From Dioscorea cayenensis subsp. rotundata (taxonomy: Eukaryota; Streptophyta; Magnoliopsida; Dioscoreales; Dioscoreaceae), in assembly GCF_009730915.1 (NCBI RefSeq), contig NC_052477.1:558001-622000 (forward strand): a stretch of DNA of 64,000 nt, in the 5' to 3' direction. The position numbers were made by a program, and so were the translations under genes. Shown here one piece after another: positions 25,541 to 41,236 of the stretch. The notes below the pieces were generated by a model. That model searched no databases. It was given only the letters and a program-made list of their open reading frames with translations, and was not told the origin of the DNA. Positions within the stretch are counted from its first letter, which is position 1; every line of letters starts with the position of its first letter.

Positions 25541-25969
25541 GCTTACATGTCCATCAGACAGTTTAGAAAGTGGCTGATTGTTAGTTGTTCGACTTTATTT
25601 AATCTCATAAATCCGGCAGGACGTTTGTTCCGTGGTACCCTAAAAGTCTGAGTAACTTGTTTAGTCGGTACCACTACCTGTTCATCAATTGATGCCGTCT
25701 CCGGTATTGGATTTGAGATGACAAGCGGACGTCATCGATGAGTGTTAGTTGATGGTTTCGCACCTGTCAACGGAGACGGTTTTGTATTCGGGGAGTCAGT
25801 GTGGATGTCCTCACGCTCGGTACTTCATGATGAGTTGGTGGGTCGATGTGGATGTCCTCCACGCGTTTCCCTAACTTCTCATTTTTGAAGAAGGGGCGAG
25901 ATCATTTCTCAAGGATGTTAGTGATTCGATTATAGAGACCACGTCGACATTTTTTGCCGACATCGACTA

Positions 25970-27980
25970 GTGGTTCAGCGGGTGGAGATAGCTTCTCCTG
26001 TTCGGAGAAGGAAGGAAATGGACAAGATGGCGCCGGTCCGGAGTGGGAAGGGACGGGGGAAGGTGGCGCTTGATCCGGAGGGAGGGATTGGCGAACATGG
26101 TGCGGGTCGGGAGGCGAAGGGAGTTAGAATGACGGATCGGGTGCGGAGGGAAGGGGGTGGGGATAGTGGCTTGGTTGCGGAGGAGGGAGGTAGTGGGGAT
26201 GAGACGGGTCCGGAGACAGAAACGGGTGGGGATGGCGCGGCAGGTGCAGAGAGGGAAGGGCGTGGGGATGGTGCTGTGGGTCCGTCAGACGAAGTCGGTG
26301 AAGAGGGAATTGAGTTTGTCTTGACTTTGCCCTTTGGGGTAATTTTTGGAGGCCGTTTTTCTGGTCGGCAATCGGCTTACAAAATTGCAGACCTTGTAGA
26401 TCGCCTTGTAACTGGCTTGAGAGGAGCATCATCTGGATCGTTAGATGCCGAAAGAGGCAATGGTTGTCTTCGCCTAATGACAACCTTCTTTACTCGAGTT
26501 CTCTTGGTGGCCGCTTGTTACGGCGGCAAATCCTTGGTGTCGTCATATCGGTGCGACATTGGAAGGAGCCACGACCCTCGATTACTTCGACTACGGTTTG
26601 AAGTCCACCATGCATTCGGAACAACTTCTCAAAATCTTTCAGTAAACGTAACCCAATGTCTTCATCAATTACCCCCCTCGGTGGATTAACAGAAATAGAA
26701 CCACGTCGACCCCGACGTGGTGGGCTCCTGGTGAGTGAGGGAGACCGTCCACGTTTCCCCAGTGGTTTCTCCGTAGATTTTTGCGCCAAGGCGTATTGTG
26801 CTAACCACTTGTTCTCCACGGTGGCTTGTCTCTAGCGAAAGTTTCTTCTTCGAGTAGTCGGGCGAGGAGCGGAAAAGCGCAATGTGGAAAATGACATACG
26901 GGTTAAGGTAAGCAATGATACTCAAACGAAAAACTTAAAACAACAATAAAAAATTAATTATTAAGCGGAACCTTAAAATATTAAGTCTAAACTACATATT
27001 TTAATTGTAAACACTAAATATTTAAGTGAAAAAGTATAACTTTTTAAGTGTAAAAACCTAAAAGTTAACGGAAAACATTTTTGCAAGTAAAAAAGGAAAA
27101 TTAGCGAAAACTAAATATTTTAAGTGTAAAAAATAAAAAAATTTAAACCATAAACGAATATTATTAGCGGACACTAAATAAGTTAAAAGTGTAAACTAAA
27201 TACCTTTTTCCCTCGATCGATGATAGCAATGAACCGATGGATGCTTGCTTCTTGAAACTGTTCACCCCGTAACACAGGATCCGGGGAGTCTTACCAAATC
27301 GCACCTTCTTACCGGTGCCAGTTACTTCGTAGAACCAAATATTTAGTGCGACGACGACATCCTCGCATAAGTAGCCGCGCTTGTCTTCTCACGGAGCATC
27401 TTGCTTGAACTCGGCTGGCCGTTTGCGGGGACGTCATCCATAAACCACTTATGTGTGGCTTGCGCCCATGCATAGCGCCGCATTGCGGGAAGATCGTCTA
27501 CATAGTCTACAAGCCAATTGGGAACAGAACATGATGAGTTTGGGAACAACATGGTCCCCATGATGAATACCAACAATATCTTCACAAAGTTTTCTTCTTC
27601 TCCCCTCTTCCGGACTAGTGTGCTAAGAGTTTTTTTTATAGCTTCCCTATGTCTTTCATAGCTTTTCGAGAAATATTTTTCTTCAAAATCTGAATGTGGC
27701 TTTCTCTTTTTGAAAACCACTGCGTCCCCATCGCATCTGAGACCAAGAATAATGGATACATCTTCTGGCCTAAACGTCAACAAGCTCTCACCAATTTTAA
27801 ATTTTTGGGAGCGCTCATCATATCTCTGCAACAGAGCATCGAGCAATCCCCTCTCTTATAGTACAGGTTCAATTTCCATTAGGTTCGCTGATTCAAGAGT
27901 ATGGAGATGGTGTCAACGAAACAACAATGAAGATCCGGGAAAGCTCTAGCAAACTTCTTCTCAATACCTTCAGTTGAACA
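25970..27980 (-). pseudogene. Plant mobile domain (PMD/DUF1985-like) transposon-derived protein relic
   Basis: Minus strand. The most gene-like part is 27846-27343: GLLDALLQRYDERSQKFKIG, FRPEDVSIILGLRCDGDAVV, LFPNSSCSVPNWLVDYVDDL, YAWAQATHKWFMDD. It resembles the N-terminal PMD/DUF1985-type domain of proteins carried by plant transposons (MULE-like, often with a Ulp1 peptidase). Upstream, in another frame, FARAFPDLHCCFVDTISILL (about 27950-27890) appears to continue it, so there is a frameshift or intron near 27850. Downstream, 26819-26490 (RSPPRRGRRGS) and a Pro/Ser/His-rich region to ~25970 could be the C-terminal tail. No start codon, conserved splice sites or intact catalytic domain; probably a relic. 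The GC-rich 720-bp plus ORF at 25970-26689 is judged a shadow. Confidence 0.45.
26930..27205. repeat. Second block of the AAGTGTAAAC..TTAA short-period repeat
   Basis: TTTAAGTGTAAA / TAAACACTAAATATTTAAGTG motifs recur six or more times in AT-rich DNA. Related to 25313-25540. Confidence 0.5.
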
Positions 27981-31320: not shown

Positions 31321-32320
31321 NNNNNNNNNNNNNNNNNNNNNNNNNNNNNNNNNNNNNNNNNNNNNNNNNNNNNNNNNNNNNNNNNNNNNNNNNNNNNNNN
31401 NNNNNNNNNNNNNNNNNNNNNNNNNNNNNNNNNNNNNNNNNNNNNNNNNNNNNNNNNNNNNNNNNNNNNNNNNNNNNNNNNNNNNNNNNNNNNNNNNNNN
31501 NNNNNNNNNNNNNNNNNNNNNNNNNNNNNNNNNNNNNNNNNNNNNNNNNNNNNNNNNNNNNNNNNNNNNNNNNNNNNNNNNNNNNNNNNNNNNNNNNNNN
31601 NNNNNNNNNNNNNNNNNNNNNNNNNNNNNNNNNNNNNNNNNNNNNNNNNNNNNNNNNNNNNNNNNNNNNNNNNNNNNNNNNNNNNNNNNNNNNNNNNNNN
31701 NNNNNNNNNNNNNNNNNNNNNNNNNNNNNNNNNNNNNNNNNNNNNNNNNNNNNNNNNNNNNNNNNNNNNNNNNNNNNNNNNNNNNNNNNNNNNNNNNNNN
31801 NNNNNNNNNNNNNNNNNNNNNNNNNNNNNNNNNNNNNNNNNNNNNNNNNNNNNNNNNNNNNNNNNNNNNNNNNNNNNNNNNNNNNNNNNNNNNNNNNNNN
31901 NNNNNNNNNNNNNNNNNNNNNNNNNNNNNNNNNNNNNNNNNNNNNNNNNNNNNNNNNNNNNNNNNNNNNNNNNNNNNNNNNNNNNNNNNNNNNNNNNNNN
32001 NNNNNNNNNNNNNNNNNNNNNNNNNNNNNNNNNNNNNNNNNNNNNNNNNNNNNNNNNNNNNNNNNNNNNNNNNNNNNNNNNNNNNNNNNNNNNNNNNNNN
32101 NNNNNNNNNNNNNNNNNNNNNNNNNNNNNNNNNNNNNNNNNNNNNNNNNNNNNNNNNNNNNNNNNNNNNNNNNNNNNNNNNNNNNNNNNNNNNNNNNNNN
32201 NNNNNNNNNNNNNNNNNNNNNNNNNNNNNNNNNNNNNNNNNNNNNNNNNNNNNNNNNNNNNNNNNNNNNNNNNNNNNNNNNNNNNNNNNNNNNNNNNNNN
32301 NNNNNNNNNNNNNNNNNNNN
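31321..32320. other. Assembly gap, exactly 1000 N
   Basis: Run of 1000 N; a default scaffold-gap size, so the true length is unknown. The long X-filled frames crossing it are meaningless. Confidence 1.
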
Positions 32321-32399
32321 ACATCGTTCAATTATTACCATTTTTCTTCCATCTCAAATTATTTCCGAGCTTTAACGCTGTTGTTAATAGTTGCTTTTA

Positions 32400-33260
32400 G
32401 CTATTTTATATATTATTGCCCACGTGATGCCTGGAGCGGCCCCGTGATCTTCTGCGGTCATTCACGACACGTGGGCCCGGCGAATGTCCGCATTGGCCTG
32501 CAGCAGCCCAGGAAAGCGTGAGCTGCAGCGCCATGATCGTTGCTTGAACATTGTGTTTTCATTGCGCCGGACCCCATCATTCGCTTCGTCTCCTTCCGCT
32601 TGATCATCCAGCCAGGCACCCCTCTGTTGTTGGGACTTCGATCATTCTCATCATCTCATGCCTTTCGCATGCCGGTCTCAATGCAACATACATTTTAATT
32701 GTTTTGCCTGAAACAGTAACACCACGAACTTGGAGACAGCGGTAATGGCGCGACAGCAGCAGTCAAAACGCGTTGCGGGGAAGACGTCCGAGCAGCCCGC
32801 CTGTTTAGTTTATAACGCTATCAACGCGCTGGCAGCGTAGCACCACTTCGCCCGTGGTCAATCGATCAATTTCTGATGACAGCCTCGCCCGCGACGACTG
32901 CTGGCGACGCACGATCACGGATTAAACAGCGAACAATATTGGTGAGATCGTACGCAGCCGATATGCATATAACGCATGTTCATAATGCTCGGCTGCCTGA
33001 CTTCAACCATGACTACCGCTGCGAACCAGCACCAGCCAGCATCATTCGGCATATTGCGGTCGATGCGCACCGGTCACCGCCTTCTTCCTTCGCGGCGTCA
33101 ATCCGGTCTGGCGAGCAGCCACCCTCACCACAATATTGAGCTTTATCGTTCACTTTACTCATTTCAGCGACATAACACGCGGTCACCATATCCTCACGAC
33201 GCATGCGTCACAGCCTCACTTTTTGGCACATTTTTTGATCATCGTCATTTTACGATAATT
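32400..33260. other. Compositionally foreign island next to the gap
   Basis: Visibly GC- and CpG-richer than everything around it (for example CCCGCGACGACTGCTGGCGACG). Composition returns abruptly to AT-rich plant DNA near 33250. All frames are short (up to 98 codons) and none is recognised. Candidates: contaminating bacterial sequence, poor-quality read consensus at a contig end, or an inserted organellar or foreign fragment. Confidence 0.5.
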
Positions 33261-34139
33261 TGTGAAATTTAAAATAATTATTAGATCCCACCTACTCCCC
33301 GAGGTTGAACTACGAGCCAGCCATCAGCCGGCACCTTGGCAATTCCTCTGTCATCTATAAAATACAAAAACAAGGATTAATCAGGCCTTATAAATCTTAT
33401 TTAAAATATAGAATGTTTAATATAATTGAAATCATAATTAGATTTAATATATATAATAATTCACATCTGGCTTGAACAGTAGAGGATCAGAGAAAATTAT
33501 ATCCAAAGTGGATATCACAATATATATATATATAATAAGCATATATATTAACCTTGAGAAATGAATGGCCCAGCCACAAAACTTGAAAGCTCAAATTGAA
33601 CTCATTAACCTGCTGGCGCCATGGTTTCAGGGTGCAAGGCGAATGCCTGTCTCTGCATCTCATATACTGTAATGGTGTTACTATTTAGATATAAAATAAT
33701 TAAAGTAAAGTAAATAAGAGATGATGATATGAGTTTGCATTGAAGTTGAATGAATGGCATGCAGAGAAGAGAGAGCATAAGTTGACAAGGTGATCAGAGG
33801 TCCCATGTGTAGAGGGTACAACAAGATCACCTTTTGATCAATCAAAGAGCAGGAAGGGGGGTAAGTAGCTAAGCAGATGATGAATGATAGGGTCCAAAAC
33901 AATGAATGAAAACACAATGAATAAAGAGCTACACAACAAGGCATATTCCAAATAACAATCATAGCAAACACAACTCACACTCACACTCACAAATATACTT
34001 CACAAATAATGCAGACATTTATACGTTGCAGTAGTAGTACATCTATGAATGACCACCAAAAGAGAATAATTTCTTTTCTTTCCTTTCCTTTCCTTTTTTA
34101 CAGTCCACTCAAACATCACCACATTAAAAATAATAATAT
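33261..34139. other. Downstream flank of TAS3, no gene recognised
   Basis: AT-rich with (TA)n and a (TCCTT)n run. The 3' end of the TAS3 precursor probably lies in the right part. A short inverted repeat (AAGGTGATC..GATCACCTT, about 33789-33833) is present, but I cannot support a miRNA there. Confidence 0.4.
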
Positions 34140-34183
34140 ATAAAATTTTTAATAACAAAATAATAATAATTATAATAGAATTA

Positions 34184-34204
34184 AAGCTCAAGAGGGATAG
34201 ACAG
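34184..34204 (-). promoter_or_regulatory. 3' miR390 target site, cleavable
   Basis: The plus strand reads AAGCTCAAGAGGGATAG then ACAG. It matches miR390 positions 1-17 except position 8, which becomes a G:U pair in the transcript. Positions 9-11 pair fully, so slicing between 34194 and 34193 is expected. The last four positions do not pair. Confidence 0.88.
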
Positions 34205-34257
34205 GGATGGAGGAGGAGAAGGCAAGAGATTGTGAATGAAGATGATGAGTGAAAGGT

Positions 34258-34278
34258 GGGGTCTTACAAGGTCAAGAA
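34258..34278 (-). ncRNA. tasiR-ARF, downstream copy
   Basis: The minus strand begins TTCTTGACCTTGTAAGAC and ends CCC, identical to the canonical tasiR-ARF of land plants as I know it. Directly abuts the other copy. Confidence 0.92.
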
Positions 34279-34299
34279 AAGGTCTTACAAGGTCAAGAA
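34279..34299 (-). ncRNA. tasiR-ARF, upstream copy
   Basis: Same first 19 bases as the downstream copy, ending CTT rather than CCC. The 21-nt spacing keeps both in one phase. Confidence 0.92.
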
Positions 34300-34354
34300 G
34301 ACCTTTTCTTGTGGGAAAGAAGATAGAAAGGATGATGGAAGGGTAAAGATCATA

Positions 34355-34375
34355 AAGCTCAGTTAGGATAGCACC
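34355..34375 (-). promoter_or_regulatory. 5' miR390 target site, central mismatches (non-cleaved)
   Basis: The plus strand AAGCTCAG then TTA then GGATAGCACC matches miR390 except at positions 9-11 (GAG to TTA) and 19. A centrally mismatched upstream site that is bound but not cut is a hallmark of TAS3. Confidence 0.85.
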
Positions 34376-34865
34376 ATCATTTCTCTACTTTGATCTCCCA
34401 TAAACATTCCCTTTAATCTCATCCTTTTCACCTTCTTCTTTGCTGTTTTCCCCTACCATTCTCTGCAAACAGACAACATTAATTAAAACTCACACACACA
34501 CACAAATATAAAGAAGAAAAAGAAGAAGAAGTATACCAGTTGGTGAGTGGAAGGTGGTGAAAGATAAATAGGTTGCATGGTTTAAGAGGAGGAGCTGCAA
34601 AGAGAGAAGAAGAAGAAGAAGAGAGAGTTGGTGAAAAGGAGAAGAGAAAGCATGGATCTCAATGTCATGCATGTAAATATCCTGCAGTGTGTTGTGAGCT
34701 TTGTATGTAAACAAAAAAAGTTATTAATTAAGGATAACTATCTATTTTTCGCAAGAAAAAGAAAAAGAACTTAAAAACAAATTGGAATACCTGACCAAGT
34801 TGAAGATAGAGACTTTAGGTTGAGCTTTAGAGAAGAGAGCATAGGAGAAAGCAAAGAGAAGGTGA

Positions 34866-34876
34866 GATATATATAG
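34866..34876 (-). promoter_or_regulatory. TAS3 TATA box, with telobox-like repeats upstream
   Basis: The minus strand has CTATATATATC here. Just upstream (34890-34907) it has three AACCCTAA-type units. AAACCCTAA teloboxes are common in plant core promoters; the transcription start would be about 34840. Confidence 0.55.
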
Positions 34877-34909
34877 TGGGGTGGTGAGATTAGGGTTAGG
34901 GTTAGGGAA

Positions 34910-35684
34910 TGTTATTTATAAAATGATGATATAATAAAAAAGATAATAAAGAGAAACAGTTGTATATGTGGAAGGAATATTAATATGCTATCAGTTTGAC
35001 TGAAGTGTTTGGCATCATTTGTTTATTTGAATCATGACTTAGGGTTTTTATTTAGTGCCATTATTATGTACATCACTTTGGTAAGTATGATAGATTCCAT
35101 GGCTAAAAGACTTCCAACCAAGCTCCAAACAAAACAATGCACAGTAGATGTTGATGTCTGCCATTTACTCCATCCTCCTCAAACATTATCTTCAAAATAA
35201 TATATATATATATATAGTAGTAATGCATATATAATATTTATTATGGAGGAGTACTTGATGAACAAATTAATTAATTAACTAATTAAATGAAGTTGATGTT
35301 TATAGTGATTAAGTTTAATTTGTTTTGTTTAGTTAATTAACCAAGGTAATTAATTTAAGTGTATGTAGACTAGGTAGCACAGGGTGAGGAGAAGTTCTCA
35401 ATGAGTTTGAGATGCTTGAAGTTTGTCATTTGGGAGAAGATATGAATAGAAAAGTTGAAAATTAACTAAGGTGATTAATTAATTGGGAAAATATTTTGTA
35501 TCTTTATATTTTAATATAAGTAATGTTTAATAAGTGGAAGGTAACAAGCACAAGAAGTGATGAATGGTGTGCACAATGATAAAATAATGAGAGACAATTA
35601 GGCACACAACATGGGATGAGTTGATAACGCAAACATATGTACATGGGGAAAGGGAGCTTGTGGGCACGCTTGTGAGGACCTCAC
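34910..35684. other. Intergenic, TAS3 upstream side
   Basis: AT-rich, with TA microsatellite near 35200 and repeated TTAATTAA strings. No coding exon recognised. Confidence 0.5.
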
Positions 35685-36240
35685 AGTCTTCTAGGGTTAG
35701 GGTTAGGGTTAGGGTTAGGGTTAGAGATATACAGGTTGTTGTAGTACATTGAATTTAGCCATTCTCACCAACTTGGTAATTAGTATATAATTAATTAATC
35801 TCATTAATTAAGAGAAAGAGAGCTTGTACACAGTATCATTCTTGTCACCTTGGTTATTAATTAGTTTAATTAGGGTTAGGCTTAGTTTTAGGGTTTACAT
35901 ATAGAGTCTTGTATGACTACCCTAACCCTAACCATTCTTGTCAACTTGGTAATTAATATATTATAATTAATCTAATGAAGAAAGAGAGCTTGAACACTAA
36001 TATCATTCTCATCATCTTGGTTATTTTTTTTTAGAGTTAGGGTTAGGGTTAGGGTTATGCATGTATAGGGTCCTGTCATGGTGCCCTAACCCTAATTGTT
36101 AATTTTAACTTGAAATTAATTCATATAAATTAAATAAGCTTAATCAAGAGAAAGAGAGTTGTAATCTAATATCATTCTCATCATCTCTTCTATTAATTAA
36201 TTTAATTAATATTTTATATATATATATATGGAGCGAATTT
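35685..36240. repeat. Tandem repeat, period ~170 bp, with TTAGGG runs and their inverse
   Basis: Landmarks such as CCATTCTYRYCAACTTGGTAATTA occur near 35760, 35931 and (diverged) 36098, about 170 bp apart. GAGAAAGAGAGCTTG and TATCATTCTYRTCAYCTTGG blocks repeat alongside. Each unit has (TTAGGG)n (five in a row at 35692-35724) and, in the second and third, CCCTAACCCTAA about 50 bases later, so a hairpin could form. The hexamer is TTAGGG, not the usual plant TTTAGGG. Confidence 0.75.
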
Positions 36241-39343: not shown

Positions 39344-41236
39344 ATGAAGTTGAAAATGACAAATTTGCCACCGCAATGCCACATGTTTTACCATATTACC
39401 AAGAAGGTCCCATTTAGGAAATTCCATTATGATGCCAATTTTTCAAAAGTCTCAACGGTAACAAACACGAAGCTCATCACAGACTACTTTTATCAAGGCT
39501 TTCCCGCCAAAGCCCGCCAAGTGTTCGATGAAATGCCACACAGAGACCTTGTCACTTGGACTTCAATGATCTCAGGCTACACATCCAATGCTTACCACTC
39601 TGATGCATTGGCTCTGTTCCGAGACATGCTTGCTGCCGGAGTGACCCCCAATGCCTTCACTTTGTCCAGTGTCATCAAAGCATGCAAAGGAATGGACTTG
39701 CAAACTAGTGGGGAAATGCTACATGCCCAAGCAGTGAAACATGGTGTTGATCGACAAGAGTACGTCGAGAACTCATTGCTCGATATGTATGCAATGTGCG
39801 GTCGTAGTATGTCGGAGGCCCGTGCCGTGTTTGATTGTTTGATGGAGAAAAGTGTGGTTTCTTGGACGACGATGATTGCTGCATACACTCACCATGGTGA
39901 TGGACACGCAGGAATTCATTTGTTTCGGCAAATGATTCAGGTATATAAGACTTTTGTTTCTGCATATGAATCAGTTTATATGGAGTTGAATTCTAATGTT
40001 TGGATTTTTATTGAAATTTAGGAAGGAGTTGAATTGAATCAATTCGTTTGTTCTATCGTTATCCGGGCTTGTGCTTCGATTAAGAATCGAATACTGGGGA
40101 AGCAAATGCATGCTGCAACGGTGAAGTCCGGGCACGATAAGGTTCTCCCGGTCGGGAATTCTATTGTTGATATGTATTGTAGGTGCATGAGCCTTTTAGA
40201 AGCAGAGCAATACTTCAATGAGATGCATGAAAAGGACTTGATCACTTGGAATACCATGATTTCCGGGTTCGAGCAAGCTATCCCTCAAGTAGCATTAAGT
40301 TTACTGATCAAGATGGGATCGAACGATGTTACTCCAAATTGCTTTACTTATACCAGCATTGCATCTGCCTGTGCAAACATGGCTGTTCTAAATTGTGGAC
40401 GACAAGTTCATGGAACTATAATTCGAAGAGGATTTGTAGGAAACCTTCAAATGGGCAATGCATTAGTAGATATGTATGCAAAGTGCGGAAGCATTGGTGA
40501 CTCGCAGAAAGTCTTCAATGAGATGTCTCGGAAAGACTTGATATCGTGGACATCTCTAATCAACGGATATGGTATTCATGGATATGGTAAGGAGGCGGTA
40601 GAATTGTTCGACGAGATGATTATTTCAGGTATTGAACCAGATTCAGTAGCTTTCATGGGTGTTGTGAGTGCTTGTAGTCATGCAGGGTTAATAGAGGAAG
40701 GTTTGAAGTACTTTAACTTAATGAAGACCGAATATAATGTTCTCGCCGATAGAGAGGTTTATGGTTGTGTCGTAGATCTTCTTGGGCGTGCCGGGAAGCT
40801 TACAGAGGCTTATGAGTTGATACAGAGAATGCCATTCAAACCTGATGAATCGATTTGGGGTGCTCTTCTTGGAGCTTGTAAGATGCATAAAAACGCGAAA
40901 TTAGGGAAAATAGCTGCCGAGGAGATCTTAAATTTAAAGCCGAAAGGAGCTAAGACATACGTTATACTCTCAGACATATATGGATCTTGCAAGCAATGGG
41001 ATGAGTTTGCAGAGACAAAGAAACTAATAAAAGAGACAGGAAGTAAGAAAGAGGCGGGAATGAGTTGGATTGAGCTGAGGGACGAGGTTTGCAGTTTCGT
41101 CGTTGGTGATACTATCAGTCCATACACCGTATCAATTTATAAAACTCTCCGAGTTTTGTCCAAGCACATGAATGATTCCGGTGTCGTATCTGATTTCAAT
41201 GCTCTACAACATAATTTCGAACCAGTGACTCGATAA
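39344..41236 (+). CDS. PLS-class pentatricopeptide repeat protein, PGN/At1g56570-like, 603 aa
   Basis: Exon 1 39344-39940 and exon 2 40022-41236, joined in frame by an 81-bp GT-AG intron. Tandem PPR motifs run through almost the whole protein, such as KARQVFDEMPHRDLVTWTSM, GNALVDMYAKCGSIGDSQKV and KEAVELFDEMIISGIEPDSV. They are followed by E/E+ motifs (EAGMSWIELRDEVCSFVVGD) and no DYW domain. Order and wording (GLKYFN, VVDLLGRAGK, MPFKPDES, KKEAGMSWI) match Arabidopsis PGN (At1g56570, ~611 aa), a mitochondrial protein linked to germination under salt and to disease resistance. Such proteins bind organellar RNA, and E-type members usually take part in C-to-U editing with a DYW partner. The N-terminus is basic, and a second ATG lies 12 bases downstream. 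Most PLS PPR genes are intronless, so the intron is mildly unusual. Confidence 0.9.

Follow-up and report, generated by a model that had tools for sequence, protein, structure and literature searches.

In the window, the 64,000-nt stretch of yam (Dioscorea cayenensis subsp. rotundata) DNA analyzed here, two miR390-complementary sites, two adjoining tasiR-ARF sequences, two predicted introns, a short open reading frame (ORF), and a perfect inverted repeat were found on the minus strand (Table 1). The minus strand of positions 33600-35400 was inspected by reading, and each of the TAS3 elements claimed in a preliminary description of this DNA was present where it had been placed, all on that strand. 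Papers given below by PMC number are cited from the available portions of their text.

Table 1. Features of the candidate TAS3 locus, in the order of minus-strand transcription
Feature	Positions	Strand	Basis	Remarks
TATA-box-like TATAAATA	34913..34920	-	sequence reading	
Second TATA-box-like TATATATAT	34867..34875	-	sequence reading	
Predicted intron 1	34595..34790	-	GT/AG ends and pyrimidine tract	196 nt; CAG/GTATTC ... TTTGCAG/CTC
Short ORF, first exon part	34537..34578	-	spliced translation	
Predicted intron 2	34463..34536	-	GT/AG ends and pyrimidine tract	74 nt; CTG/GTATAC ... TTTGCAG/AGA
Short ORF, second exon part	34385..34462	-	spliced translation	stop codon 34387-34385
5' miR390 site GGTGCTATCCTAACTGAGCTT	34355..34375	-	pairing score	
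Perfect 14-bp inverted repeat	34273..34311	-	inverted-repeat scan and RNA folding	11-nt loop
tasiR-ARF 1 TTCTTGACCTTGTAAGACCTT	34279..34299	-	2 mismatches to canonical	place D5(+), off by 1 nt
tasiR-ARF 2 TTCTTGACCTTGTAAGACCCC	34258..34278	-	identical to canonical	place D4(+), off by 1 nt
3' miR390 site CTGTCTATCCCTCTTGAGCTT	34184..34204	-	pairing score	predicted cut 34193/34194

miR390 sites, tasiR-ARFs, and their register

Pairing with miR390 was scored for each 21-mer on both strands by a plant-type score, in which the penalty was doubled at positions 2-13. The top two 21-mers of the window were 34204-34184 (score of 5.0) and 34375-34355 (5.5), followed by a third with 8.5; the top two are on the same strand with a spacing of 150 nt. 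The two sites differ in their central pairing. In the 5' site, the central mismatch described previously falls on miR390 nt 9-10, with G:U pairs at nt 11 and 19 and the remainder paired. In contrast, the 3' site is paired at nt 1-17, including nt 10-11, with a single G:U at nt 8 and nt 18-21 unpaired, and this pairing is in agreement with its earlier designation as the predicted cleavable site. From these patterns, the 5' site is expected to be bound but uncut.

A null of 5.12 Mb was generated as first-order Markov sequence with the composition of the window. Only one of its positions scored 5.5 or lower (4.5, better than either yam site), and 25 scored 8.0 or lower. About 0.025 sites this good would be expected per 128 kb, i.e., both strands of the window, which is a rough figure because it is based on one null hit. 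Two such sites were found on one strand 150 nt apart, and the pair is therefore not a product of chance.

The 21-mers of the window were compared with the canonical tasiR-ARF as a reference. The differences of the first copy (34299-34279) from this reference are its last two bases, and the next-closest 21-mer in the window had six mismatches. The two copies abut between the miR390 sites at a spacing of exactly 21 nt and share 19 identical bases, and thus the claim of two abutting 21-nt tasiR-ARFs flanked by miR390 sites held. The letters of the reference are termed ta-siARF in the available text of PMC12274081.

With the cut predicted in the 3' site, the 5' fragment would end at position 34194, and the siRNA 3' ends at 34258 and 34279 lie at distances of 64 and 85 nt from this base, respectively (3x21+1 and 4x21+1). 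The offset of at most 1 nt from the register of the 3' cut was hence as previously stated, but the support it lends to that cut is weak. A miss of 1 nt or less has a chance of about 3/21. Moreover, the near-register does not discriminate between the two sites, since the first tasiR-ARF is 65 nt (3x21+2) from where the 5' site would hypothetically be cut, a fit that is off by 2 nt. The phasing of the tasiR-ARFs is weak evidence, and TAS3 genes have been described to vary in phasing register and tasiARF layout (PMC5907777). Given this nearly equal fit, the register could also be set by the 5' site rather than the 3' site, or both sites could be cut. However, the mismatches at nt 9-10 and the G:U at nt 11 resemble the uncuttable 5' site of Arabidopsis (PMC12127299, as far as its text was available), and a role of the 5' site in setting the register, or cleavage of both sites, is considered very unlikely.

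Leader, short ORF, and hairpin

Transcription would start near 34890 if the TATA-like TATAAATA is used, or near 34845 if TATATATAT is used instead. Between the two boxes, three telomere-like repeats (CCCTAACCCTAACCCTAA) were observed at 34890-34907 of the minus strand, and a similar TTAGGGTTAGGG inverted pair was observed at 36043-36095. The two small introns proposed for the precursor are plausible by their GT/AG ends (34790-34595 and 34536-34463); both were chosen by eye from these ends and a pyrimidine tract, and the positions of the ends were computed.

Removal of the predicted introns yields a 39-aa ORF that opens with an ATG at 34578 and has its stop 9 nt ahead of the 5' miR390 site. The earlier statement that the locus encodes no protein is therefore too simple and needs to be qualified, as a short ORF that ends next to the 5' site may well be translated from this locus. 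When the leader was shuffled 5,000 times with its dinucleotides preserved, 1.0% of the shuffles had an ORF of 39 aa or longer that ended within 12 nt of the site, and 2.9% had one of 24 aa or longer; these values are suggestive but not proof, since the limits of length and distance were chosen after the ORF was seen. Additional ORFs were also present in the leader. An upstream ATG at 34842 begins a 36-aa ORF in a different frame, which terminates 86 nt short of the 5' site. That frame also contains a 19-aa ORF, which overlaps the 5' site by 13 nt. The ATG at 34842 would precede the 39-aa ORF if the start derives from the TATAAATA box (34920-34913), and would fall about at the start if the TATA-like stretch at 34875-34867 is used.

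In Arabidopsis TAS RNAs, ribosome-protected regions coincide with short ORFs and extend up to the miRNA site (PMC5207768), and AGO7 was reported to halt ribosomes (Hou et al., 2016, as cited in PMC5207768). In N. benthamiana, the level of TAS3a RNA fell when the TAS3a ORF was altered (Bazin et al., 2017, cited in PMC12127299). Similarly, Arabidopsis TAS3a/b/c without the ribosome-bound regions showed a lowered level of TAS3 RNA, while the efficiency of miR390 cutting was described as unaffected (PMC12127299). For siRNA from the same deletions, the available text of PMC12127299 gives a decrease in its introduction and results, whereas its discussion gives no effect. Because these deletions lowered the RNA and not the cutting, the TAS3 short ORF may matter mainly for stability, and the ribosomes on TAS3 may only stabilize the RNA.

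The first tasiR-ARF lies within the span of the 14-bp inverted repeat, which also covers 6 nt of the second. With the loop limited to 3-30 nt and the arm to at least 3 G or C, no perfect inverted repeat of the window is longer, and repeats of at least 11 bp were found in four places under the same limits. Longer inverted repeats exist in the window, and the best 40 listed were AT runs. Upon RNA folding, a 61-nt piece reached -19.5 kcal/mol (z of -3.7, with 2 of 200 shuffles equally good), and the hairpin gave a z of -3.9 in a 101-nt piece (none of 200 shuffles) and -2.3 in a 147-nt piece (5 of 200). No structure was found on folding of 34150-34299 (z of +0.73), which lacks the upstream arm of the hairpin.

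One arm of the hairpin is composed of tasiR-ARF bases (eight from the first copy and six from the second), while the other consists of 12 bases of the upstream flank and two tasiR-ARF bases. The hairpin is thus created by the upstream flank, and it may either have been selected or be a by-product of template switching. It is considered very unlikely that the hairpin acts in yams as a structural element of the precursor, in which the first tasiR-ARF is folded into stem and loop, and that it slows RDR6 or DCL4 or hides this tasiR-ARF before cleavage, and thereby tunes the ratio or the exact ends of the two tasiR-ARFs, both 1 nt out of register. In a TAS3 of N. benthamiana, as given in the available text of PMC12274081, TC precedes the upstream tasiARF, and one small RNA has GTC. 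The same is seen in yam, a likeness too short to decide.

Surrounding sequence

A PPR gene was identified at 40022-41236, for which the best 120 of 6,005 matches included D. alata (95%), D. sansibarensis (90%), and D. zingiberensis (81%), followed by Phoenix dactylifera (63%) as the next named plant; one further match (P0003) was at 100%. A Pfam scan of 10 of the 42 ORFs listed for the window returned matches for eight, including peroxidase, kinesin, PPR, Agenet, DUF538, and plant mobile domain. The PPR gene thus marks the window as yam DNA, and the other genes mark it as DNA of a plant. Several ORFs at 25925-27855, one of which matched plant mobile domain / DUF1985 (27343-27855), are perhaps a transposon remnant. 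A stretch at 32375-33250, near a 1000-N gap (31321-32320), has a G+C content of about 50-58%, compared to 35% in the window. At blastn sensitivity, no match to 32330-33310 was found in plasmid or E. coli records, and the G+C-rich stretch may be an artefact of assembly or contamination, or a remnant of a mobile element.

A separate hairpin with a 9-bp perfect core (AAGGTGATC/GATCACCTT) was observed at 33783-33841 of the minus strand, some 340 nt downstream from the 3' miR390 site. Its z was -2.9 on the minus strand (1 of 200 shuffles as stable) and -0.74 on the plus strand. No Rfam match was found at the gathering score across the window, this hairpin included. Searches below the threshold returned three matches in one case and six, at E up to 1, in another. 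Among these, snoR125 scored 20.8 bits against a curated threshold of 100, and mir-26 scored 19.6 bits against 57; both were rejected along with mir-5681 and Plastid-psbA-2, as the residue-level alignments reflected purine-rich composition and a local hairpin. A scan for bacterial promoters and terminators gave eight promoter-like sites (6.7 in shuffles) and two terminator-like sites (0.9 in shuffles), and was set aside because it is inapplicable to a plant gene. The 40-nt tandem tasiR-ARF core had no match in viral contigs, as expected of a plant feature.

The yam locus as a TAS3 gene

TAS3 is ancient and widespread in land plants, where its RNA gives rise to small RNAs that keep auxin-response genes in check. 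TAS3 evolution has been surveyed chiefly by Xia et al. (2017). For the elements described here, the best-fitting interpretation is a TAS3 whose tandem tasiR-ARFs are accompanied by two miR390 sites, the 5' one non-cleavable and the 3' one cleavable, and the sequence supports this interpretation. Very probably, the locus is a functional two-tasiARF TAS3 gene whose transcript is encoded on the minus strand.

If the yam gene follows the known pathway, ribosomes would translate the short ORF and stop at AGO7-miR390 on the uncut 5' site, while AGO7-miR390 would cleave the 3' site at 34193/34194. The 5' fragment would be copied by SGS3 and RDR6, followed by DCL4 dicing in 21-nt steps starting at the cut. 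The products D4(+) and D5(+), with a drift of 1 nt, would then be the tasiR-ARFs, and these would silence ARF2/3/4-type mRNAs and thereby act on leaf polarity and phase change.

Alternatively, the locus could be a silent or decaying copy, unexpressed or uncut, with other TAS3 genes present in yams. A register that is off by 1 nt would fit such a copy, as would the 1000-N gap and the odd G+C-rich stretch about 0.9-2.9 kb downstream. Decay would, however, be expected to have eroded some of the inspected elements, whereas the exact tasiR-ARF, the paired cut site, the splice signals, and the ORF beside the 5' site are all intact, and a silent copy is judged highly improbable. Chance resemblance to TAS3, although a single equally good site could arise at random, as in the Markov sequence, is refuted with near certainty by the joint occurrence of the paired miR390 sites and the tandem tasiR-ARFs that they flank.

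The functional TAS3 gene that we favor has counterparts in Arabidopsis, apple, olive, and maize, from which the two-tasiARF type is known (PMC5907777, PMC3446319, PMC3225373, PMC4263373). Arabidopsis TAS3a (AT3G17185) contains, as in yam, two near-identical adjacent tasiARFs (PMC5907777, PMC5207768, PMC12127299). Its 5' site, mismatched at positions 9-11, is uncut and its 3' site is cut (PMC12127299), where the cut in yam is predicted. It also has a ribosome-bound short ORF upstream (PMC5207768, PMC12127299), the yam counterpart of which is predicted from sequence. In contrast, the tasiR-ARF pair is placed at D7(+)/D8(+) in Arabidopsis and olive (PMC3225373) and at D4/D5 with a 1-nt shift in yam. 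The apple MdTAS3-1 family likewise has two tasiARFs between miR390 sites, and the mismatch in its 5' site is at position 10 (PMC3446319). The stretch from the tasiARFs to the 3' site is described as constant in length in apple (PMC3446319) and has 64 nt to the predicted cut in yam. In maize, a monocot like yam, tas3a, tas3b, and tas3c each have two tasiR-ARFs and a 3' site that is cut (PMC4263373).

Overall, the yam TAS3 looks intact and ordinary, as an additional TAS3 of a well-known type, and any novelty would reside in where the tasiR-ARFs are placed (D4/D5), in the hairpin, and in the short ORF in a monocot. A literature search, which most subscription papers fell outside of, found no paper combining Dioscorea, TAS3, and miR390, and among the papers matching Dioscorea and tasiRNA, covered by their titles and the starts of their abstracts, no title was on yam tasiRNAs. 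An apparently intact two-tasiARF TAS3 is hereby documented in a monocot crop genus other than the grasses, and the rest of the locus confirms what was expected. The proximity of the ORF stop to the 5' site, at 9 nt, suggests that the arrangement of a ribosome next to AGO7, as in Arabidopsis, may extend to monocots.
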